A DNA stretch of 34,377 bases. It comes from a virus. The stretch spans positions 1-34,377 of the IMG/VR virus record IMGVR_UViG_3300024344_000063. One strand, 5' to 3'. Position numbers and translations under genes: made by a program. Below, piece by piece: positions 1,957-27,497 of the stretch (within the stretch, counting starts at the first letter, position 1; each line of letters opens with the position of its first letter). The notes below the pieces were generated by a model, which was not told the origin of the DNA, searched no databases, and was given only the letters and a program-made list of their open reading frames with translations.

Positions 1957-3621
1957 TTAAATCGTAACCTCTTGTAAACTAATTGTAAATTTGTTTATTC
2001 CAATATTGGAAGTATCTATTACATCCATTGTAAAATCTAATCCAATGATCAAGGCTTTTCTATCAAACTTGTTTTTTATTCTAACTCTACAATACTTTCC
2101 TAAATCTATTCTAACATCAGGAGGAAAAATATTAATTGGTTGATATTCTCTTTTCTTTACACATACAATATCACTAATAGAATCCAAAGCTTCTACAACA
2201 TGATCAAATTCTGAAGCTTGAGGAAACACTAAAGTTTTTTCTCTAGTTTTAAATTTTCTTTTGGCTCTTACATCTTCATAAATAACAGTAATAGGATTAG
2301 ATGAATAACATCTGAAAGCAAAATCTCCTGTTTGTGAAGTCCATGTTAAGCCATCTGATGAATCAAAATAAGTTCCTGTAGCTGTTTGATATGACATAGC
2401 AAAAGAATCAGTAGCAGTTCCATACAGTTTAACCATTAAAAATATCTGAGTATTTGGAGTTACAGGAGTAGTTCCAAATGATATCTCTGTCCATTGTAGA
2501 GTTCCATCCAATCCTCTAAGAGTTTCTTGAGATAGTTCTGCTTCTTTGAGAATAGTATCTTCATCAGGATCTGTTCCGTTATCAGTTACTAGGAAAAATT
2601 TAGCACTCCCTGCTGAAGGGTTTCCTGTTTTACCCATCTTAATAGATACTTTAGAAACATTATCTTTTGTAGGAGTAAATGGAATAGCATACCATTTTAC
2701 ATCAGAATTTAATGTAGCATCTTCAGAAGTTTGTTCTATATCCTTTTGAATTACGTTTGAGTTTAATCCCTCTAATATTGAGTAACCTGAATCTAATGTT
2801 GTATTTCTCCATCCTATAGGCTCACGCCCAATTAATCCTACTTTAGTTACATCCCATCCTGTAACTTTAGAATGTTCATCATCATTAGTTAGCATAATTC
2901 CAGAAGATATAGTATCTCCTAATCTAAAGAAAAAATCCTTATCAGCATCTACTCCATAAACAGCTCCTGCAGAAGCAGCTAAACTAGCAATAGCAGCAGC
3001 CCATGTTTGATTATTTTGCTGAAAGTCAATTAATTGATTATTGATATTTGTAGTATCTACTCCGTTGGTAGTAATTCCTGATTCTCCTACAAGTTCAGAA
3101 TCTACTAAATGATCAGTTTCTGTAATTATTTCCTTTGCAATCTGTGAAGGATAAACATCAGTATCTGAAGCATCTGCTGTTTCTCCATCTGATTCTTTTT
3201 TCTGGAATCGTTTGATGTTTGTATTTCTATCATTAAAGATAATTCCGTAACCTCCTGCATTGATACGAATCTGTGTAAAGTTTGTATCTACTTCCCAAAC
3301 TTCAGTATCTTTTACTTTACCATAAAATAAATTATAGAGTCCTCCAACTGTTTTTCCAACTTGTAATTTGATTTCCCATTCTTCCTGAATTAGACAATTT
3401 CCATCTGAATCTACCAAATCAGAATTTGTATCATCTATTACAAATGAGAGAGATCCTGTATCATCATTGATTCCTAAATGCCCTGCTACTGTTCTTAAAT
3501 GAAAATCTCTTACAGCATTAGAATCCAATAAAGTAGATGTAAATGAGTAACGTTCTACTCCGTCTAAATCATAGATAATTAATTTAGGCATTAAAGGAGT
3601 AGGATCAAAATTTGAAAGCAT
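1957..3621 (-). CDS. Tail tip/baseplate hub-like protein
   Basis: This 554-residue protein is encoded directly after the tape measure, with a 1-nt stop/start overlap, the place where siphoviruses encode distal tail and hub proteins. The N-terminal half (about 1-260) has features of hub proteins: LIIYDLDGVERYSF, DTEVWEVDTNFTQIRINAGG, and the C-terminal block RVRIKNKFDRKALIIGLDFT. Between them, about residues 300-440, lies a beta-rich insert (VSIKMGKTGNP, TEISFGTTPVTPNTQIFLMV) resembling a carbohydrate-binding jelly roll. The most likely role is the tail tip that joins tube to fibres. The assignment rests on synteny and general pattern, not a recognised family signature. Confidence 0.65.
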   Translation of the reverse strand: MLSNFDPTPLMPKLIIYDLDGVERYSFTSTLLDSNAVRDFHLRTVAGHLGINDDTGSLSFVIDDTNSDLVDSDGNCLIQEEWEIKLQVGKTVGGLYNLFYGKVKDTEVWEVDTNFTQIRINAGGYGIIFNDRNTNIKRFQKKESDGETADASDTDVYPSQIAKEIITETDHLVDSELVGESGITTNGVDTTNINNQLIDFQQNNQTWAAAIASLAASAGAVYGVDADKDFFFRLGDTISSGIMLTNDDEHSKVTGWDVTKVGLIGREPIGWRNTTLDSGYSILEGLNSNVIQKDIEQTSEDATLNSDVKWYAIPFTPTKDNVSKVSIKMGKTGNPSAGSAKFFLVTDNGTDPDEDTILKEAELSQETLRGLDGTLQWTEISFGTTPVTPNTQIFLMVKLYGTATDSFAMSYQTATGTYFDSSDGLTWTSQTGDFAFRCYSSNPITVIYEDVRAKRKFKTREKTLVFPQASEFDHVVEALDSISDIVCVKKREYQPINIFPPDVRIDLGKYCRVRIKNKFDRKALIIGLDFTMDVIDTSNIGINKFTISLQEVTI

Positions 3622-5573
3622 TATGTAACTCCTCCTCCTATCAATCCCATTCTCTCTCTAAAGTCTAACATTCCGTTAAGCTGAATATTTCCTTGTTGAG
3701 TTGATTGTAATGATATGATCTGAGTTTGTGGAACTCCTAATAATGATGAATTAGTATTAATCTCTGCTTGTTCTTCTGCTAAAATTCCTCTCAAAAATGT
3801 AGATGAATTTCTAGGAGAAGAATCATTTCTAAAAGGATCTAATGCTCTAATCTGATTTGATAAGGAAACTCTAGCTCTTGCTTCTGATATTCTTAAACCT
3901 AAACCATGAAAATCAAATGTTCTAGCTTCTGAATATCCTGCATATTGTATTCTTGGATTTGCCTTTAATGATAAATCCATTCCTGTTAATTCGGATAATG
4001 ATTTTTGTGCATTTCTATTTCCCCCCCATAAAGCATCTTCAGCTTTTAATGCCTGATAATTATTATGACGATTAGCAGAACCTCCTCCTGAGTTTACACT
4101 CTTAGCAGTTCCAATAGAAGAAGCAGAACTTTGAGGAGAACCTCCTAATGATGAAGTAAAGTTTGATGCTCCTGTTTCTTTACCATAATTTATAAATCTA
4201 TTATTGGTTACTGCTGCTGTCAATCCTGTAGATATTGCTGAAGCTGAAGATGTGATATTTCTACCTACATTAAATTGTCTAGTGATAGCATTACCTCCTG
4301 ATAACCCTGCTTGATTCATAGCGATAATTAATGATGAAGCTGCTTGAATTCTACCTAAAGCAAGAGGAATTCCTTTCTCTCCGTTTTCGCCTCCTGTAAT
4401 GGAGGCTAACCTAAAACCTGACGAACTTGCAAATCTATTTGAAGCTGCTGTTAATTTAGTAATAGATGAAGTAGTATTATCTGCAGCTTTACCTAAACCT
4501 TCTACTGCAGGAGTTTGTTTATTATCAACTTGATCAGCAAATCTTTGTGCTGCTTCCATGTAATCTTCTAAAGAATCTGCAGCATCATCTGTTTTAGTTT
4601 CTGTTAATCCTAATGCTCCTGATAGAGTAGGTAGTGATCCTCTTTCCTGTCCTGTTAAATCTTCTATTCCATCTCTGAAACCTCCAAGATTCGATTCATA
4701 AGCTACTACTGCTGCTGTACTTGCTATCAAAGCTGCTGCTGTAACTGGATTTGATAACATGAAAGTTTTCATAGCTATAGCTGCTGCTCTTAATGATGCT
4801 GCTAAACTAAAATTAGCTCCTGTTTGTGCTACAGTAACTCCTACGCTTGATGCTTGAACAGGAACTGATGCTGCTGTAACTCCTGTTTTTGCTACTATTG
4901 ATCTAGTAACTGCATCTGTAGTTTTTTTCTGAGCAATTAAAGCTAAAATCATAATACCTGATTGAACTGCTGCTGCTGCTGTGTTGATTCCTATAGTTAC
5001 CATCTGTCCATCTAAAGCCCTAGTATCAGCAGCTAATTGTTTAGTTTCTAATTGAGCTTCCTTCATCATGAAACCTAATTCTTCAGTAGCTCTTGCTTTA
5101 TCACGTTCTGATATTGTGCCTTCTTGAATTGCTGTTGTTAAATCCTCCTGAGCTTTTCTAATGTTTACTGTCATTCTTTCTATTCCTAATCCTGTTTTTT
5201 CTAATCCAACAAGAGAAGCCTGTAATCCGAAAACTGCATCTGTAACTCCTGTAACTGCTTGACCTAATCCTAATGCTGATGTAGCTAATGTATTTAATTG
5301 ACCATCTGCAGAATTAGCAGCAGAACCCATTTTGTTTAAACCTGTAGAACCTTCGTTTCCTGCTTGAGCTACTTTAGTTCCTGTTTGTTTTGCAGTAGAT
5401 CCTAACTTGTTTAACCCTCCTGCAGCTTTAACTGATGCTTGATCAATATCTGTTCCTGCTTTCTTTCCTTTAGTTCCTGTATCTTTGAGTTCCTTTCCTA
5501 CTTTCTTGGCTGTTTGAACTGCCTTATCTCCTTCAGCAGTAATTACTACCTTAGCTTTCAAATCCTTAGCCAT
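3621..5573 (-). CDS. Tape measure protein
   Basis: This 650-residue protein sets tail length. It starts with a basic, Ala/Gly/Lys-rich helical region (residues 1-110, many KKxG and QTG repeats), continues with long predicted helices, and has hydrophobic segments near residues 195-215 (GIMILALIA) and 265-290 (AALIASTAAVVA). The C-terminal third is Ser/Asn/Gly-rich. Position after the tail chaperone and before the tail tip is canonical. At the usual ~1.5 angstrom per residue it would predict a tail of roughly 100 nm. The start is ATG, with two copies of the promoter-like element 27 and 37 nt upstream. Confidence 0.85.
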   Translation of the reverse strand: MAKDLKAKVVITAEGDKAVQTAKKVGKELKDTGTKGKKAGTDIDQASVKAAGGLNKLGSTAKQTGTKVAQAGNEGSTGLNKMGSAANSADGQLNTLATSALGLGQAVTGVTDAVFGLQASLVGLEKTGLGIERMTVNIRKAQEDLTTAIQEGTISERDKARATEELGFMMKEAQLETKQLAADTRALDGQMVTIGINTAAAAVQSGIMILALIAQKKTTDAVTRSIVAKTGVTAASVPVQASSVGVTVAQTGANFSLAASLRAAAIAMKTFMLSNPVTAAALIASTAAVVAYESNLGGFRDGIEDLTGQERGSLPTLSGALGLTETKTDDAADSLEDYMEAAQRFADQVDNKQTPAVEGLGKAADNTTSSITKLTAASNRFASSSGFRLASITGGENGEKGIPLALGRIQAASSLIIAMNQAGLSGGNAITRQFNVGRNITSSASAISTGLTAAVTNNRFINYGKETGASNFTSSLGGSPQSSASSIGTAKSVNSGGGSANRHNNYQALKAEDALWGGNRNAQKSLSELTGMDLSLKANPRIQYAGYSEARTFDFHGLGLRISEARARVSLSNQIRALDPFRNDSSPRNSSTFLRGILAEEQAEINTNSSLLGVPQTQIISLQSTQQGNIQLNGMLDFRERMGLIGGGVT

Positions 5574-5592
5574 AATCTAAAAAATAGTTTAG

Positions 5593-5610
5593 AGAAGTAA
5601 ATGGAAGTAA
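5593..5610 (-). promoter_or_regulatory. Tandem WTACTTCY promoter-like elements
   Basis: Two elements, TTACTTCC (5603-5610) and TTACTTCT (5593-5600), lie 10 bp apart, 37 and 27 nt upstream of the tape-measure ATG. A ten-base period places both on the same face of the helix. Confidence 0.5.
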
Positions 5611-5611
5611 A

Positions 5612-5692
5612 CTAACTCATGAAGAAAGCTAATGCTCCTGCTATAGGTAATCCTATAGAGAGTATTGTTAGAATTTTAATATCTCTGTCCAT
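5612..5692 (-). CDS. Tiny single-membrane-span protein
   Basis: A 26-codon ATG reading frame fills the gap between the gp10-like gene and the tape measure. It begins MDRDIKIL and continues as one hydrophobic helix (TILSIGLPIAGALAFFMS), so a membrane peptide is possible. It ends just before the tape-measure promoter elements. The upstream TCCTTATTAGGA is a small palindrome. No Shine-Dalgarno is obvious. Such short frames arise by chance, so support is only the membrane-like composition and the fit in the gap. Confidence 0.35.
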   Translation of the reverse strand: MDRDIKILTILSIGLPIAGALAFFMS

Positions 5693-5726
5693 GCTTAAGT
5701 TAAGAGGTTCATCCTAATAAGGACTA

Positions 5727-6197
5727 TCAAATACTTTTATCTGTAACTTCTTTAGCCTGACCTTCAAAAGGTTTCCAATGTTTAGATATTTTTCCTGCTA
5801 CAATATCAGGGAGTAACTTTTCAAACCTAGCTAAAGCAGGGCGAAGATGAGGTTGAGGTTTTGTAGCCTTTGATAACATTACAAAAACATCTTCTCCTGA
5901 TTTAGGATCTATCCAATGTAATACTTTCTTCTTTGTTGGTCTTACTACTCCTCTACCATATTCTAAGATGAGAAATATCTTCTCCTTTGATGATCCGATA
6001 GTAATTGATTCTGCTGAGGTTCTTTGAATAACCCATGATTTAGCATACTCTCCTGATTGTCTAGGAGCTTGTTTCTGTATTAGTTTGATTAGAATATTAG
6101 CTGCAGTAAACATGATATCCTGAGTTAGTTTGTCAATGGATTTCTCAAAGTCTAAATCTTTGATAACCTTACTCAATCCTTCAATCTTAATTACCAT
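5727..6197 (-). CDS. HK97 gp10-like head-tail/tail completion protein
   Basis: This 156-residue protein has the pattern of the HK97 gp10 family: an N-terminal helix pair (LSKVIKDLDFEKSIDKL), the block AANILIKLIQKQAPRQSGEYAKSW corresponding to the family's 'APVDTGxLRxS', a beta strand, and a QPHLRPAL motif near residue 120 matching 'PFLRPAL'. Family members join or complete the tail. Its location beside the tail chaperone is slightly unusual, since gp10-like genes commonly precede the tube gene. The ATG overlaps the end of the frameshifted chaperone extension, so translation may be coupled. Confidence 0.65.
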   Translation of the reverse strand: MVIKIEGLSKVIKDLDFEKSIDKLTQDIMFTAANILIKLIQKQAPRQSGEYAKSWVIQRTSAESITIGSSKEKIFLILEYGRGVVRPTKKKVLHWIDPKSGEDVFVMLSKATKPQPHLRPALARFEKLLPDIVAGKISKHWKPFEGQAKEVTDKSI

Positions 6198-6749
6198 TTT
6201 GTTTCTTCTCCATATCTGAACTCTGCTTCTGTTGAATTTCTACAAACATTTGTTTAATTAGAACAAATTTATCTAAACCAAAATCCTTGATATAATTTTC
6301 AATCTCTGATAAGTTACCTAGTGAATTAATCGAACTAGCTATTATCCAAGCTTCTCTGAGTTGTTTATCTTCCCAGAGTTTCTTTGCATTTCCATAGACA
6401 GCGTCTTGGATAACTCGAACTCTTTCCTGTTCGTTCCTGCTATCAGTAAAAAACTGAAAACTGCTCCTGCTGTTTTTCTTAGAACTGTGATATCAAAATT
6501 CTCTACTTCTTTATCATAGTTAAAATCAAGATAAGTTTCTAAAACATCTTTAGTCCATAAATCCCATTTATCATTATACTCTATTTGATCTGCTAATCCT
6601 ACAATATTATCTTCAGATTTTGATAATTCTGTAAATGCTTTAGAGAGTTCTTTAGGTTTTGTTCCCTTGACTTCTTTAACAGCCCATTTAGATTCTCCAA
6701 TAAAATAGAAATCTAATTCTTCTGTAAAACCTCGATAAACTTCAGACAT
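6187..6749 (-). CDS. Tail assembly chaperone G-T fusion made by -1 frameshift
   Basis: Slipping back one base at T TTT TTA (6447-6453) joins the first 101 residues of the short chaperone to 86 codons in the -1 frame, giving 187 residues. The new part reads TDSRNEQERV, then VIQDAVYGNAKKLWEDK, and is strongly helical and charged, ending at TAA 6187-6189 over the start of the gp10-like gene. This reproduces the lambda gpG/gpGT arrangement, in which a minor frameshift product recruits the tape measure to the tube protein. The open -1 frame has no start codon fitting an independent gene. The frameshift is predicted from sequence, not observed. Confidence 0.7.
6342..6749 (-). CDS. Tail assembly chaperone (G-like, unshifted product)
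   Basis: This 135-residue acidic protein starts at ATG, MSEVYRGF, and lies between the tail tube gene and the tape measure, where siphoviruses encode the G chaperone. Residues 1-100 contain a small beta-rich N-terminus and then helices (KAFTELSKSEDNIV, LWTKDVLETYLDFNYD). After the slippery site the zero frame continues only 34 residues (LIAGTNRKEF and on), with less structured composition, to a TAA. This is the expected major product. The function is inferred from position plus the frameshift. Confidence 0.7.
   Translation of the reverse strand: MSEVYRGFTEELDFYFIGESKWAVKEVKGTKPKELSKAFTELSKSEDNIVGLADQIEYNDKWDLWTKDVLETYLDFNYDKEVENFDITVLRKTAGAVFSFLLIAGTNRKEFELSKTLSMEMQRNSGKINNSEKLG
6447..6453 (-). 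other. -1 ribosomal frameshift site, T TTT TTA
   Basis: In the chaperone frame the codons are AGT TTT TTA CTG, so the heptamer is exactly X XXY YYZ in phase. This is the same heptamer as the HIV-1 gag-pol site. Its A-site Leu codon is residue 101. Slippage opens 86 further codons. Confidence 0.7.
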
Positions 6750-6791
6750 GATATTATAATTCTATAGATAGATTTAGTAGATTCGTGTAGC

Positions 6792-7688
6792 CTATGTTAA
6801 TGCTCTATTCTCTGCTTCCCATGTAATATCTTCTTTGATAATATCTGTGTTTGATGCTGAAGGGTTTGAAGCATAAGATGTTATTCTAGCATCAGTATCT
6901 GAGAAAGCAGATGTTCCGTTTTCTACATCCATAGTTAAAGCTCGTTTAGTTAATGCTGAATGATCTCCTTGTATTGTTGTATTCTTTTGATAGATAGTAG
7001 CTGAACCTGTGTTTCTTCTATGTGAAACTCTTGAATGTTCTATCATTGTTTTACCCATTACTTCAACTAATCCTAATTCAAATGTAGTTGTAGCAGAAAA
7101 TGATAATATATCATAAGCTGCTGAGTTCCATGTAAAAGGATCATCAGATGCTGAAGAGTGATCTAAAGCAGTAATTGAAGAAGCTGAAGTTAATAGAGTA
7201 GATCCTGCAGGAGCTGATGTACTCCAATCAGTAATTTCTCTACAAACAAAACTCATATCCAAAGTCCATAAACCTCTCTCTGCAGAGAGAGTAGTAGATA
7301 TTGGTCTTGCTCCTTTCATTAATCTATAATTATCAGTTCCATCAAAGTCTTTACCTACAGCCCATGATTGAGATTCCTCAATAGTTCCAGAACCTGAAGG
7401 AGCATTGAATCCAGTTTTAGCTAAAACAGTATCTGTGATATTTGCTTTAATTGTAAATGCTCCTATCTCTCCTGTTTTAACTGCATTAATGATATCATAA
7501 TTTCCTAATTCTAAAACATCTGCTTTTGTAATTGTATGATCAATAGTAAAATCTGTAATTATATTTGGTTGAATGTAAGTAGGAGAAGTAGGTGTAACTC
7601 CAAAAGTAGCAGCAGTAGTTCCCTCTACAATATATTGAGGAGGATTTGTATAATCTCTCATTGTTGCAGGAATGTATGAAGTAGGCAT
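6792..7688 (-). CDS. Major tail tube protein
   Basis: This 298-residue, largely beta protein contains patterns common in tail tube subunits: TAATFGVTPTSPTYI near the N-terminus, then TIDHTITKADVLELGNYDI, a strand-rich centre, and TTLSAERGLWTLDMSFVCRE. It lies between the terminator-like gene and the tail chaperone, as expected for the tube protein. It has its own ATG and a promoter-like element 40 nt upstream, suggesting separate strong expression. The extra ~100 C-terminal residues (two NTGSATIYQKN / TALTMDVENG-type strands) may form a decorating domain. Confidence 0.7.
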   Translation of the reverse strand: MPTSYIPATMRDYTNPPQYIVEGTTAATFGVTPTSPTYIQPNIITDFTIDHTITKADVLELGNYDIINAVKTGEIGAFTIKANITDTVLAKTGFNAPSGSGTIEESQSWAVGKDFDGTDNYRLMKGARPISTTLSAERGLWTLDMSFVCREITDWSTSAPAGSTLLTSASSITALDHSSASDDPFTWNSAAYDILSFSATTTFELGLVEVMGKTMIEHSRVSHRRNTGSATIYQKNTTIQGDHSALTKRALTMDVENGTSAFSDTDARITSYASNPSASNTDIIKEDITWEAENRALT

Positions 7689-7720
7689 TTACAAATTATA
7701 ATTCTAATTATATCATTAAT

Positions 7721-7728
7721 GGAAGTAA
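7721..7728 (-). promoter_or_regulatory. WTACTTCY promoter-like element
   Basis: The coding strand reads TTACTTCC 40 nt upstream of the tail-tube ATG, followed by an A/T-rich stretch including GATATAATT. Confidence 0.5.
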
Positions 7729-7729
7729 T

Positions 7730-8260
7730 TTATGATTTTGTTTTAAACCAATTTACAGTTAAAGTTCCTGCTGCTCTGATATTATCTTTAGAAACAGAGT
7801 TCTCTGTTTTTGGTATATTCCAATCTACAGAGTTTTCTTCAAAGGAATGAATATGTGAAGCTGTAGTATCTGATTTAGGAATTGTAGTATTTCCAGAAGG
7901 AAGTATTTCCCAAATGATTCTATCTACTTCTCTCATCATTAATTTTAATACAGTATAACTTTCTGCTTGAATATCGATATAGATTAACTGATTCATCTTC
8001 TGCCCATAATCTCCTATGAATCTTCCAGAAGGATCAGGAAATTCTGAATCTGAATTTACTACTATACCATTTACTCCAAATGATGTATTATCAAACCAAG
8101 CATGACTCACAGAAGATCCAGTAGCTGAACTAAAATCAGGAGTTAAGTTTTCTGAACCATTGTTTACATTTGTGTTAGTCCAATTAGTTTCTAAATTATA
8201 TCTAATAACTTCATCAAGTTCTTCAAAAGTTCCAACTAATCTATCATAAGAAACTGTCAT
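7730..8260 (-). CDS. Tail terminator-like protein
   Basis: This 176-residue protein immediately precedes the tube gene in transcription order. It has an N-terminal helix (YDRLVGTFEELDEVIRYNLE), a loop-rich insert, a strand QLIYIDIQAES followed by helix VLKLMMREVDRIIWEIL, and a C-terminal TLTVNWFKTKS strand. Helix-strand-helix order and position match gpU-type tail terminators, which cap the tube and bind the head. No specific motif proves this. Its start overlaps the stop of the upstream gene by one base. Confidence 0.5.
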   Translation of the reverse strand: MTVSYDRLVGTFEELDEVIRYNLETNWTNTNVNNGSENLTPDFSSATGSSVSHAWFDNTSFGVNGIVVNSDSEFPDPSGRFIGDYGQKMNQLIYIDIQAESYTVLKLMMREVDRIIWEILPSGNTTIPKSDTTASHIHSFEENSVDWNIPKTENSVSKDNIRAAGTLTVNWFKTKS

Positions 8261-8571
8261 TATCCCATCTCAACTTTTGACCAATCTCCATTATCTTGAG
8301 AGTTATCTCCTTTTAATTTCTCAAGTAAAGCCATACCTCTCTCATGATACCTTTTAGACTCTACCTCTTCTTTTGCTAACATTCCTGCAGCTATCAAATT
8401 TACTGCAGATGTTAATGAAGCAGAAGGAGAAGTAGGATCTGTTGTTAAGTTTAGTTCAGATAATGCAATACTCGTAGCATCAGTTCTTGCTTGAGTTGTA
8501 GCTGTATCTGCTGCATTATTCACACGCTTGAATACTAACGTTTGAACAGCATCATCTGTTCCTAATACCAT
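8260..8571 (-). CDS. Small helical head-tail connector candidate
   Basis: This 103-residue protein is mostly helical: a Ser/Thr/Ala-rich first half (ATTQARTDATSIALSEL), then SAVNLIAAGMLAKEEVESKRYHERGMALLEKL. Small helical proteins of this size between head and tail genes are often adaptor/connector proteins of the gp6 or gp15 type. The next gene overlaps it by one base. The ATG is preceded at 37 nt by a promoter-like element. The identification is by position and composition only. Confidence 0.45.
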   Translation of the reverse strand: MVLGTDDAVQTLVFKRVNNAADTATTQARTDATSIALSELNLTTDPTSPSASLTSAVNLIAAGMLAKEEVESKRYHERGMALLEKLKGDNSQDNGDWSKVEMG

Positions 8572-12815: not shown

Positions 12816-13544
12816 TTATCCTGAAATTGCTTTACCTTTCTTGACTTCTAAATATCTACATCTGCAGTTATGATGAACGGGAATTTCAGGCTTTGAAGGA
12901 TCATCAAAAGCAAACTGTTTTCCATCTAAAGGAGAACAGATAGGACATACCCTTTCATCCTTGCGTGTAGTAAACTCTAGTCTAATTTCTTCCAAATCAG
13001 TTAAAGTTCCTTTAATTTTATTTGTAGATAATACTGATTGAGCTAATCTACTCTGTTGATTCATTGTGTTTAGTGCTGCATTGTTTGTAGATTTTGTAAC
13101 CAAATCAGAAACCATAGATTTGATAAAGTTACCCAATAAACTAATTCCAAATTCTCTAACTTCAGCAGCATTAACAGTTCCCCAAAATCTATCTTTAAAT
13201 TCAGTTCTCAGTTCTTCCATCTTTGAGATATCTTCTGTAGATAATGGAGTATGTAGTTTATTCACTTTGAAAGCGTAATCTCTGCCATTTAGGTAGGTAG
13301 ATTCAACATAACTATCTATCAATTCATTAACTGAAAACTCAAACTCATCTTTGATATCAATATCTTGAACTCCTTTCTTCTTCATTGTTTTGATTCTACT
13401 AGCAATCCTTCCAAGTTTAGATTCTAATTCTGATTGTTTTAAATCAGAGAATTTAGTAGTTCTAGTTCTTGCTAAATCTGCTTTCTCTGTAATTAAAAAC
13501 TCTAGAACTTTGTTAAGATTGTTTTTAGTTCTATAAGGTTTCAT
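12816..13544 (-). CDS. Mu gpF/SPP1 gp7-like head morphogenesis protein
   Basis: This 242-residue protein ends with the hallmark of the Mu-F family: RVCPICSPLDGKQFAFDDP and then IPVHHNCRCRYLEV, near residues 198-235. The first 190 residues are helical and basic. Members of this family are encoded next to the portal and are minor head proteins needed for assembly or DNA ejection. The cysteine/histidine cluster probably binds a metal. The ATG overlaps the stop of a tiny zinc-ribbon frame (ATGA). No C-terminal toxin or nuclease domain is fused, as sometimes occurs in this family. Confidence 0.85.
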   Translation of the reverse strand: MKPYRTKNNLNKVLEFLITEKADLARTRTTKFSDLKQSELESKLGRIASRIKTMKKKGVQDIDIKDEFEFSVNELIDSYVESTYLNGRDYAFKVNKLHTPLSTEDISKMEELRTEFKDRFWGTVNAAEVREFGISLLGNFIKSMVSDLVTKSTNNAALNTMNQQSRLAQSVLSTNKIKGTLTDLEEIRLEFTTRKDERVCPICSPLDGKQFAFDDPSKPEIPVHHNCRCRYLEVKKGKAISG

Positions 13545-13627
13545 TTCTTAGAACATTCTCCATTTTTCTGATGTTTTGTAATAATATACCATTGACCTTT
13601 TAATCCACAATATCCACAAGAGGACAT
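13541..13627 (-). CDS. Tiny zinc-ribbon protein between portal and Mu-F-like genes
   Basis: This 28-codon frame starts at ATG, MSSCGYCGLKGQWYIITK, and ends HQKNGECSKK. The CGYC pair followed by H and C is a plausible CCHC zinc site. Its stop overlaps the Mu-F ATG (ATGA), indicating coupling. The same frame is open upstream to the portal's final AAA AAA codons, so a -1 slip there could instead append it to the portal. The size is below the range of gene finders, but the composition and overlap favour a real product. Confidence 0.45.
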   Translation of the reverse strand: MSSCGYCGLKGQWYIITKHQKNGECSKK

Positions 13628-13653
13628 AAATTGTTGATCCCCTCTAACTTTCT

Positions 13654-14898
13654 TTATTTTTTGGTAAGCCATTCAGAAATATTCCTATAAGCTTCAGTTT
13701 GTGGATTATCTGTATCTTCTGTTAAATCTGCTCCTCTCTTCTTTAGAATATTTCTATAATCATCTCTTGAAATTACTCCTGCTAGATAAGCATCCTTTGC
13801 ATCTACAATAGATACAGCATTTACTTCAGGCTCTTCAATGGTAATTTCTAATTCTAATTTGTTTAAAGCATCTGCAGATTCATATCCGTTAAGTTGTAAC
13901 AATGGGAAGCATAATTCCATTTTATATTTCCATAAAACATATCTTCTCAAAGCCTTAACCTTTCTAGCAATTACACTATCAGTAGTTTCTGATGATGCTC
14001 TTGCAGTAAACTCAGCAGAGAATATTTGAGGAGAAAATTGTGTAGATAAATCAGCCATCATATCAAGATGTTCTGTAAAGTCTTTGAATTTGGCTTGAGG
14101 ATTTACTTCATGAATATCCTTAGTAAAGGCTCTATCAGTAAATATTTTCTCTCCTCTTTTACGTTCCTTGAATTTCTGTTTCATCTTCTTTAAGAAATCC
14201 TTAGATGCTCCTTCAAAGGTATAGACTTCTTGAGGTTCTGCATAATTGTTAAAGATAGATTTCATATTATCTTCAATCTCCCACATGGCTTCAATAGGAG
14301 CTTGTAACACTCTATCATATCCTGTGTTTAATTCTCTAGGAGCTAACAAAGGATAAGCAAGAGGTTTAGCCCATTTCTCTCTAGTAACTGGATTTAATTG
14401 TAGATTGATTACTTTACCTGTTCGTAAATCAATAGGATCATGTCCTTCTATTTTTTGAACATATTTCAAAACATTACCAAACTTATCTCTATCTTTATCA
14501 GCTACAGTTCTCACATCTATTTCATCAATTCCTGCAAGAGGATTATCTGATTCTGAATACTTTTCCATAAAAGATTCTCCACATGATAACATTGTAGTAA
14601 CTGCTCCTTTGAATTTCATGTGAGAGTTTGTATTCTCATTAAAATCTTCAATTAGTTTAGTAGCGTTTTCATCTTTACAATTAATTACAAAGTCTAAACC
14701 CATGATTAATTCAGAGTAAGAATCTACTGCTAATTTGATTCTAGGATCATGTTGATAATAGTAAATACATTTCTCAAAAGAAACTACAGGCTCTTCTATA
14801 TTCCATTCAGAGTTTCCTCCTACCTCTACTTTCCCTTCCTCTACTTTGAAGATTCTACTTAGAGATTCTCTGATTTTCAATCTTTCTCTCCATGACAT
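13654..14898 (-). CDS. Portal protein
   Basis: This 414-residue protein has portal features: an N-terminal region with RLKIRESLSRIF, the YYQHDPRIKLAVDSYSELI segment (the usual 'VxxavdxiaxxvxxL' helix), the PLAYPLLAPRELNTGYDRVL block, a DNMKSIFNNYAEP linker, and the C-terminal EFTARASSETTDSVIARKVKALRRYVL helix. It forms the ring through which DNA is packaged and ejected. It lies between the terminase block and the Mu-F-like gene as expected. Its ATG lies inside the end of a tiny zinc-ribbon frame. Length is typical or slightly short. Confidence 0.85.
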   Translation of the reverse strand: MSWRERLKIRESLSRIFKVEEGKVEVGGNSEWNIEEPVVSFEKCIYYYQHDPRIKLAVDSYSELIMGLDFVINCKDENATKLIEDFNENTNSHMKFKGAVTTMLSCGESFMEKYSESDNPLAGIDEIDVRTVADKDRDKFGNVLKYVQKIEGHDPIDLRTGKVINLQLNPVTREKWAKPLAYPLLAPRELNTGYDRVLQAPIEAMWEIEDNMKSIFNNYAEPQEVYTFEGASKDFLKKMKQKFKERKRGEKIFTDRAFTKDIHEVNPQAKFKDFTEHLDMMADLSTQFSPQIFSAEFTARASSETTDSVIARKVKALRRYVLWKYKMELCFPLLQLNGYESADALNKLELEITIEEPEVNAVSIVDAKDAYLAGVISRDDYRNILKKRGADLTEDTDNPQTEAYRNISEWLTKK

Positions 14899-26611: not shown

Positions 26612-26949
26612 CCCCTCTCTCTCCTTGCTTTCAATATCCTAACAAACTCATCCAAGTCAAAATTCTTGTAAGCTTCAATCTTTGTTATTAATTGATGAAC
26701 TGGACTTGTCACATAGGCAAAATCTTCAGGAGTATTTTCAACTCTGATTTTTAAAAATTTAAAATATTTTAAATCGCCTTTAGCTCCTTTAGGATGATCT
26801 CTCCTTCTATCTCCAAAGAATTTATAATTAAAATGATGAAACACCATTCCCATTTTGTGTTTGGTAACTCCTGTAACTTGGCATTTACCTAAGAAGAATT
26901 TATCAGCTAAATCTTGTTTGATTCCTCTGATGATATCTCTAGTAGTCAT
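26608..26949 (-). CDS. Degenerate HNH-like protein
   Basis: This 113-residue basic protein contains GKCQVTGVTKHKMGMVFHHFNY near residues 21-42 and TSPVHQLITKIEAY near 80-95. The C...HH...H arrangement recalls the His-Me (HNH) nuclease fold, where MVFHH is the 'xxHH' core and VHQLI the 'C-H-xLI' helix, but the second Cys pair is missing. A structural relative or inactive HNH protein is possible. It overlaps both neighbours in the early operon. Confidence 0.4.
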   Translation of the reverse strand: MTTRDIIRGIKQDLADKFFLGKCQVTGVTKHKMGMVFHHFNYKFFGDRRRDHPKGAKGDLKYFKFLKIRVENTPEDFAYVTSPVHQLITKIEAYKNFDLDEFVRILKARRERG

Positions 26950-27497
26950 GAGTAAAAACCCTCTACTCGTGTTCTTTTGAAATTACAATTAAAACAAAGA
27001 ACTTCTAAATCGTCTACTTTTCTTTCTCCTGAAATAATATCTTTATAGATATTATCATGCACAGTATATTTTTTCCTATCAATCGAGCCATTTTTTTTAC
27101 TATGTTCTAAAGTAAGAATATCTAAATCTGTTATTTTACAATGAATTTTTTCTTTTTGCCAACCATTACAGAATACATAAGTGAATCCTTTACTTTCCTG
27201 AATAATCATATATGCTTGTTTTTTATTTTCTACTCGTGATTGTCTACGTTTTCGATTAGATCTTTGTCGCTGTTTGCTTAATAAATTAGGATTTTTTTTA
27301 CACCATTTTGCAAGGGTTTTTCGTGTTTTACATCTATTATTTTTTCCCCATTCTTTAGAACAATCATTAAGTTTTATTCTGTTTTTTTTATAATAGTTTT
27401 TAATATAATATTTATTGTTATAACGGAATACTCTATTAATAATAAATTGATATTTTTTAGTATGAGAAGGATAGTAAGGCAACATCAACTGACTCAT
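26946..27497 (-). CDS. HNH endonuclease-like protein
   Basis: This 183-residue protein is very basic in its first 100 residues (Asn/Lys/Arg/Tyr-rich, e.g. CKTRKTLAKWCKKNPNLLSK), followed by an HNH module: ITDLDILTLEHSKKNGSIDRK, YKDIISGERKVDDLEVLCFN and CNFKRT. The LEH, NG and LCFNCN pieces match HNH families with 'DHxxGxGxxHR...LLCANCN'. The first Cys pair is replaced, so zinc binding may differ. It could be a homing nuclease or a nicking enzyme. A free-standing insertion within the operon is plausible, given its stronger A+T bias. Confidence 0.6.
   Translation of the reverse strand: MSQLMLPYYPSHTKKYQFIINRVFRYNNKYYIKNYYKKNRIKLNDCSKEWGKNNRCKTRKTLAKWCKKNPNLLSKQRQRSNRKRRQSRVENKKQAYMIIQESKGFTYVFCNGWQKEKIHCKITDLDILTLEHSKKNGSIDRKKYTVHDNIYKDIISGERKVDDLEVLCFNCNFKRTRVEGFYS

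Follow-up and report, generated by a model that had tools for sequence, protein, structure and literature searches.

A probable −1 frameshift site in the tail-assembly-chaperone gene of a virus related to those of ammonia-oxidising archaea

The G/G-T tail assembly chaperone of phage lambda is made by −1 frameshifting, as reviewed in PMC5009743. Among viruses of archaea, −1 frameshifting has been predicted in the haloviruses HVTV-1, HCTV-1, -2, -5 and Hardycor1, and the haloviral sites named are G GGA AAC/AAG/AAT and A AAA AAC (PMC5009743, PMC8211752, PMC7911831). For Archaea in general, the review PMC8211752 mentions only one reported −1 case, the fucosidase gene of Saccharolobus solfataricus, and the viral cases are inferred there. 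This agrees with the first-pass annotation of the DNA described here, which held demonstrated frameshifting to be rare in archaeal viruses: in the reviews PMC8211752 and PMC5009743 it is given as a prediction in haloviruses. In the open-licence literature (subscription papers were mostly outside the scope of the search) we recognised no report of a chaperone frameshift site in viruses of Nitrososphaeria. The stretch of DNA that we analysed, called the window, has 34,377 nt and comprises positions 1 to 34,377 of the IMG/VR virus record IMGVR_UViG_3300024344_000063.

The tail module of the window lies on the minus strand throughout and has the order tube, G, T, HK97-gp10-like protein, tape measure. 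The tail tube protein (7688..6792, minus) matches Pfam Phage_tube_2 at 0.0026, under the Pfam cut-off, and in a single comparison matches the major tail protein of the Nitrososphaera provirus Pro-Nvie1 at 2e-23. G, the 0-frame ORF of the putative tail-assembly chaperone (6749..6342, minus; 135 aa), is located between the tube and the genes for the HK97-gp10-like tail completion protein (6197..5727, minus; Pfam PF04883 1e-7, PHROG 5 2e-11) and the tape measure protein (5573..3621, minus; 650 aa). The latter is assigned by its position and by phmmer matches in relatives (L094 1e-28, L090 2e-14, L099 4e-7); it has no match in Pfam or PHROG. Gene order in Pro-Nvie1 is identical, with the gp10-like gene between T and the tape measure, and most other relatives, judged by their ORFs, have this order too. 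The window also encodes an integrase, an MT-A70 methyltransferase and a Prim-Pol/D5 primase-helicase, and the virus may therefore be temperate.

Within G, the codons AGT TTT TTA set the heptamer T TTT TTA in phase at 6453..6447 on the minus strand. This is the sole in-phase X XXY YYZ of the gene, G residues 1-101 extend up to its end, and the first-pass annotation had placed it correctly at 6447-6453. The −1 open frame (6492..6187 including the stop, minus) opens 39 nt 5' of the heptamer and ends at the TAA 6189-6187; the portion from 6453 on is T. Counted from the heptamer T has 88 codons, 86 of them new, and it overlaps the downstream gp10-like gene, whose start is the ATG 6197-6195. The earlier description of a −1 frame open for 86 codons up to a TAA overlapping the next gene is thus right. 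From the heptamer to the 0-frame stop of G there are 102 nt. Between the opening of the −1 frame and a point 90 nt beyond the 0-frame stop, T has no ATG, GTG or TTG. Independent expression of T in the window seems unlikely, because its frame has no start codon near the beginning.

It is important to note that the window sequence by itself is no proof of frameshifting. Its G+C content is 33%, and its long ORFs have 47 heptamers in 8,271 codon positions; at this density the probability of an in-phase heptamer in the overlap of G and the −1 frame is 0.24, and at the pooled density 0.19. Since the chance of a heptamer in that overlap is about 0.2, the window alone is not compelling, and the significance of the site comes from the relatives. 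The minus-strand ORFs of the window (n=47) contain 57 in-phase heptamers, two of which enter a −1 frame that passes the stop of their own gene by at least 40 codons. The site in G is one of the two. The other is G GGT TTT in the gene at 26946-27497 of the window, minus strand, where the −1 frame has 112 codons. As the following gene starts with an overlap of 4 nt, coupling is a simpler reading at that place.

The terminase and the capsid protein of the window each match one of 50,697 phage records, in both cases Pro-Nvie1 (about 32% and about 31%, respectively). Relatives of the terminase are found in 42 of 400 genomes of the same class, and relatives of the tube in 8 of 400 genomes of the class, 12 of 400 of the order and 24 of 398 of the phylum. 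These draws of genomes overlap; they are centred on G001 (L003, Nitrososphaeraceae) and on G132, a genome whose terminase match scores equal to that of Pro-Nvie1. The window terminase is 47% identical to that of L038, a locus in a genome of the class, and the tube only about 23%, which looks like a mosaic relationship. By sequence similarity the virus is related to viruses that infect ammonia-oxidising soil archaea (Nitrososphaeria), its structural genes being nearest to those of Nitrososphaeria proviruses. No relative was returned when IMG/VR was searched with the chaperone, tube, gp10-like protein, terminase and capsid protein of the window, or with alignments of two terminases and of four tubes; an alignment of 11 terminases gave 15 loci. 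A search of phage DNA with positions 5000-8300 of the window gave no match.

Loci for comparison were picked by tube or terminase homology, and the heptamer was not a criterion. Those counted are non-redundant, have a homologous tube and allow the following gene to be assessed (n=17, window included). We left out L097 and L098 as duplicates of L095 and L093, respectively, L177, in which the tube is followed by no G on its own strand, L179 and L180, which end inside or at the tube, and L091, L096 and L100-L105, which have no tube match. L183 stands in for L092, a locus of the same record that breaks off within the tube.

All 17 assessable non-redundant loci have an in-phase X XXY YYZ inside a −1 overlap. 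The heptamer is T TTT TTA in nine of them (the window, L038, L086, L087, L090, L094, L095, L099, L178), C CCT TTG in L002 (Pro-Nvie1), L036 and L089, C CCT TTC in L093, A AAA AAC in L085, T TTA AAA in L088, A AAA AAG in L183 and A AAT TTT / T TTT TTC in L140. Among the relatives, the slip site is thus conserved in place and not in letters. Given a background of 160 heptamers per 37,188 codon positions, chance would put a heptamer into 1.7 of the first 16 loci; taking the loci as independent, all 16 would have one with a probability of about 8e-18, a figure that overstates the case as some of the 16 are mutually related. The same genes have 4 heptamers in 1,799 codon positions outside the overlaps. 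Some heptamer-bearing loci sit in sequence of 52-56% G+C, and in five loci (L087, L099, L140, L178, L183) the −1 frame begins exactly at the heptamer. An ATG, GTG or TTG follows shortly after the 0-frame stop in several relatives. In L178 there is an additional ORF between tube and G. In L094, an IMG/VR contig, a block of G, T, the gp10-like gene and one small ORF (13254-14602) has the opposite orientation to the tube and tape measure on either side of it, and still holds the slip site; no long inverted repeat flanks it (longest shared word 9 bases), and the inversion is either genuine or an assembly error.

A more distant set of 36 loci (L141-L176) was tallied separately, and 33 were assessable, L155, L157 and L166 being too short. 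The heptamer is present in 21 of the 33 and absent in 12. Conservation of a heptamer in homologues, which the first-pass annotation had suggested as a check, is complete in the 17 loci above but not in the distant ones. All 12 distant loci with T TTT TTA were used for a frame-switch test; they are mutually related and their 66 pairs are not independent. Upstream of the heptamer, differences at the 0-frame codon positions 1/2/3 number 879/566/1607, and downstream of it those at the −1-frame positions number 705/502/1325. Upstream, amino-acid identity is 0.66 in the 0 frame and 0.30 in the other one; downstream, the −1 frame reaches 0.68 and the 0 frame 0.43. Judged by these differences, the constrained reading frame changes at the heptamer in the 12 loci.

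Homologous T domains of the distant group are reached via different sites, T TTT TTA in some loci and either A AAA AAC or A AAA AAA elsewhere. They match PHROG 9001 'tail assembly chaperone' (7e-13) and also annotated tail assembly chaperones of Bacillus phages, one of which is gp23 of Bacillus phage Eoghan, encoded just 5' of the tape measure gene. The T domain of L141, a locus from the archaeal phylum, is 53% identical over 36 residues to Eoghan NC_020477 13551-13658, a similarity that is close for hosts so distant. Elsewhere in the distant group (L150, L158, L159, L162, L173, L174, L175) the short ORF after the tube overlaps a +1 ORF, not a −1 ORF, by 23-29 nt, which is possibly a +1 shift or some other arrangement. 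Because several loci show such a +1 overlap after the tube, the −1 overlap rule is not universal within this group. Genomes of this phylum can have several tail modules: there are four tube matches in G557 (L143, L148, L153, L160) and six in G681 (L155, L158, L159, L173, L174, L175).

T is conserved both among Pro-Nvie1, L036 and L038 (phmmer 1e-13 to 4e-11) and in the pair L086/L087 (phmmer 3e-24). The conserved T products of relatives have pN below pS, with pS near saturation. In the relatives the −1 product is thus under purifying selection; for the window, what is seen is a frame that stays open over 86 new codons. Neither G nor T of the window has a match in Pfam or PHROG, and comparison with the relatives by phmmer or by hhalign profiles gives nothing significant apart from the G-T fusion against L090 (E 5.6e-4, from a set of just 28 sequences). 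They are near-orphans, with neighbouring genes clearly homologous to those of the relatives. G of the relatives has weak matches to PF10109 (0.0088) and PHROG 1442 (0.017). An AlphaFold2 model of G residues 1-101 built from five sequences is of fair quality (pLDDT 82, pTM 0.71); a fold from the single sequence had a pLDDT of 36 and was discarded. The top predicted viral structure for the model is a mycobacteriophage tail assembly chaperone at a non-significant E of 0.088, and the HK97 chaperone 2ob9 (Z 3.7, rmsd 3.5, 74 aligned) is tied with unrelated entries. In the PDB, the model had no fold match at E 0.001 or better. A chaperone role is assigned to the window gene mainly by position, complemented by the frameshift architecture and the relatives.

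An RNA structure past the slip site, for which the first-pass annotation had proposed to look, was not found. Specifically, folding of the 80 nt past the slip site in 10 loci gave z from −2.87 (L086) to +2.17, i.e. no general stimulator; in the window z is −0.32 and nothing stable is present downstream. Rfam has no match at E 1 or better over window positions 6100-6800. On the upstream side, an AGGAG at 6464..6468 (minus), 10 nt 5' of the heptamer, is a possible but weak internal Shine-Dalgarno-like stimulator: the 9-base site has an energy of −6.3 kcal/mol, and 11% of the stretches scanned in G are equally good. Such an upstream site is seen in some loci (L002, L038, the window), but 6.5 to 57% of the stretches in the respective gene do as well. 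As a stimulator the AGGAG is unconvincing, suggestive at most.

Our results suggest that the window carries a G/G-T tail-assembly-chaperone locus with −1 ribosomal frameshifting at T TTT TTA, a reading to which we assign a probability of roughly 0.91. That the tail-assembly chaperone of an archaeal virus might be expressed through a −1 frameshift had been proposed before, and the comparison of 17 out of 17 loci lends this strong support. Points that speak against it are the near-orphan sequences of G and T, structure matches that stay below significance, the missing RNA structure, the weak Shine-Dalgarno-like site, the gp10-like gene ahead of the tape measure, and the 12 of 33 distant loci that have no heptamer. 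The majority of ribosomes would read G alone, yielding the 135-aa protein, and a minority would slip by −1 on T TTT TTA with TTT in the P site and TTA in the A site. The slipped tRNAs would re-pair on TTT TTT and reading would continue into T, giving a G-T fusion of 187 aa. By analogy with lambda, as reviewed in PMC5009743, G would coat the tape measure and the T part of G-T would recruit tube subunits; the G:G-T ratio would matter, and neither protein would be present in the finished virion.

The −1 frame could in principle also be entered during transcription, if RNA polymerase slipped on the T6 and produced mRNAs with an altered U count from which a normal ribosome reads T. The window site is indeed T6 followed by A, nine of the 17 loci have T TTT TTA, and the site in L183 is a run of A. 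However, the homopolymers in C CCT TTG (L002, L036, L089), C CCT TTC (L093) and T TTA AAA (L088) are not longer than four, and all sites keep the X XXY YYZ pattern in the 0 frame; tandem tRNA slippage needs this, slippage of the polymerase does not. Since this 0-frame pattern is common to all loci and some of its forms are without a long homopolymer, the varied letters favour tandem tRNA slippage over polymerase slippage, and we consider the latter quite improbable.

We give still less weight to T as a separate gene, expressed by re-initiation or coupling next to an incidental heptamer. Gene 19 of Pro-Nvie1 was deposited as a CDS of its own, and start codons do occur soon past the 0-frame stop in several relatives. 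The absence of any ATG, GTG or TTG in the window from the opening of the −1 frame to 90 nt past the 0-frame stop is hard to reconcile with this, as are the conservation of the −1 frame directly from the heptamer in the 12 distant loci and the heptamer in 17 of 17 loci. The smallest probability goes to pure chance, by which an AT-rich genome would yield T TTT TTA together with an open −1 frame and G would be the sole product. For a genome of 33% G+C the chance of a heptamer in the overlap is appreciable (P about 0.19-0.24), but it would not account for 17 of 17 loci, some of them at 52-56% G+C, or for a constrained frame that switches at the heptamer in the 12 distant loci.

Slippage of the ribosome by −1 in the tail chaperone gene may well be the general rule among tailed viruses of Nitrososphaeria and also common beyond them, across Thermoproteota; we lean towards this generalisation with somewhat better than even confidence. 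It would be a bare tandem slippage without downstream structure, in which the letters change freely (T TTT TTA, A AAA AAC, C CCT TTG) and position and product persist. The frameshift reading of the window and its relatives adds a new archaeal lineage, that of the ammonia-oxidisers, to those whose viruses would have a lambda-type chaperone frameshift, and two hypothetical genes of the published provirus Pro-Nvie1 would become one frameshift gene. The loci also offer defined slip sites at which −1 frameshifting by archaeal ribosomes can be tested.

As compared to phage lambda, the window is alike in having a small gene after the tube, an in-phase heptamer and a −1 T-domain extension ahead of the tape measure. 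It differs in that no family match links the sequences and in that its heptamer lies 102 nt ahead of the 0-frame stop. The first-pass annotation had equated the gene order with that of lambda, which holds for tube, G and T before the tape measure, but the window has a gp10-like gene between T and the tape measure. With the G/G-T genes of haloarchaeal viruses, as presented in the sources cited above, it shares a predicted −1 shift at X XXY YYZ in tailed viruses of archaea; the host lineage is another one, and the sites are T TTT TTA in the window and C CCT TTG in relatives. Genes 18 and 19 of Pro-Nvie1 (FR725450), deposited as two separate hypothetical proteins, have a G and T that are not significantly alignable with those of the window. 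The gene order is the same, gene 19 lies in the −1 frame of gene 18, and an in-phase C CCT TTG stands immediately before the gene 18 stop, to be compared with the T TTT TTA of the window, from which it differs in letters.
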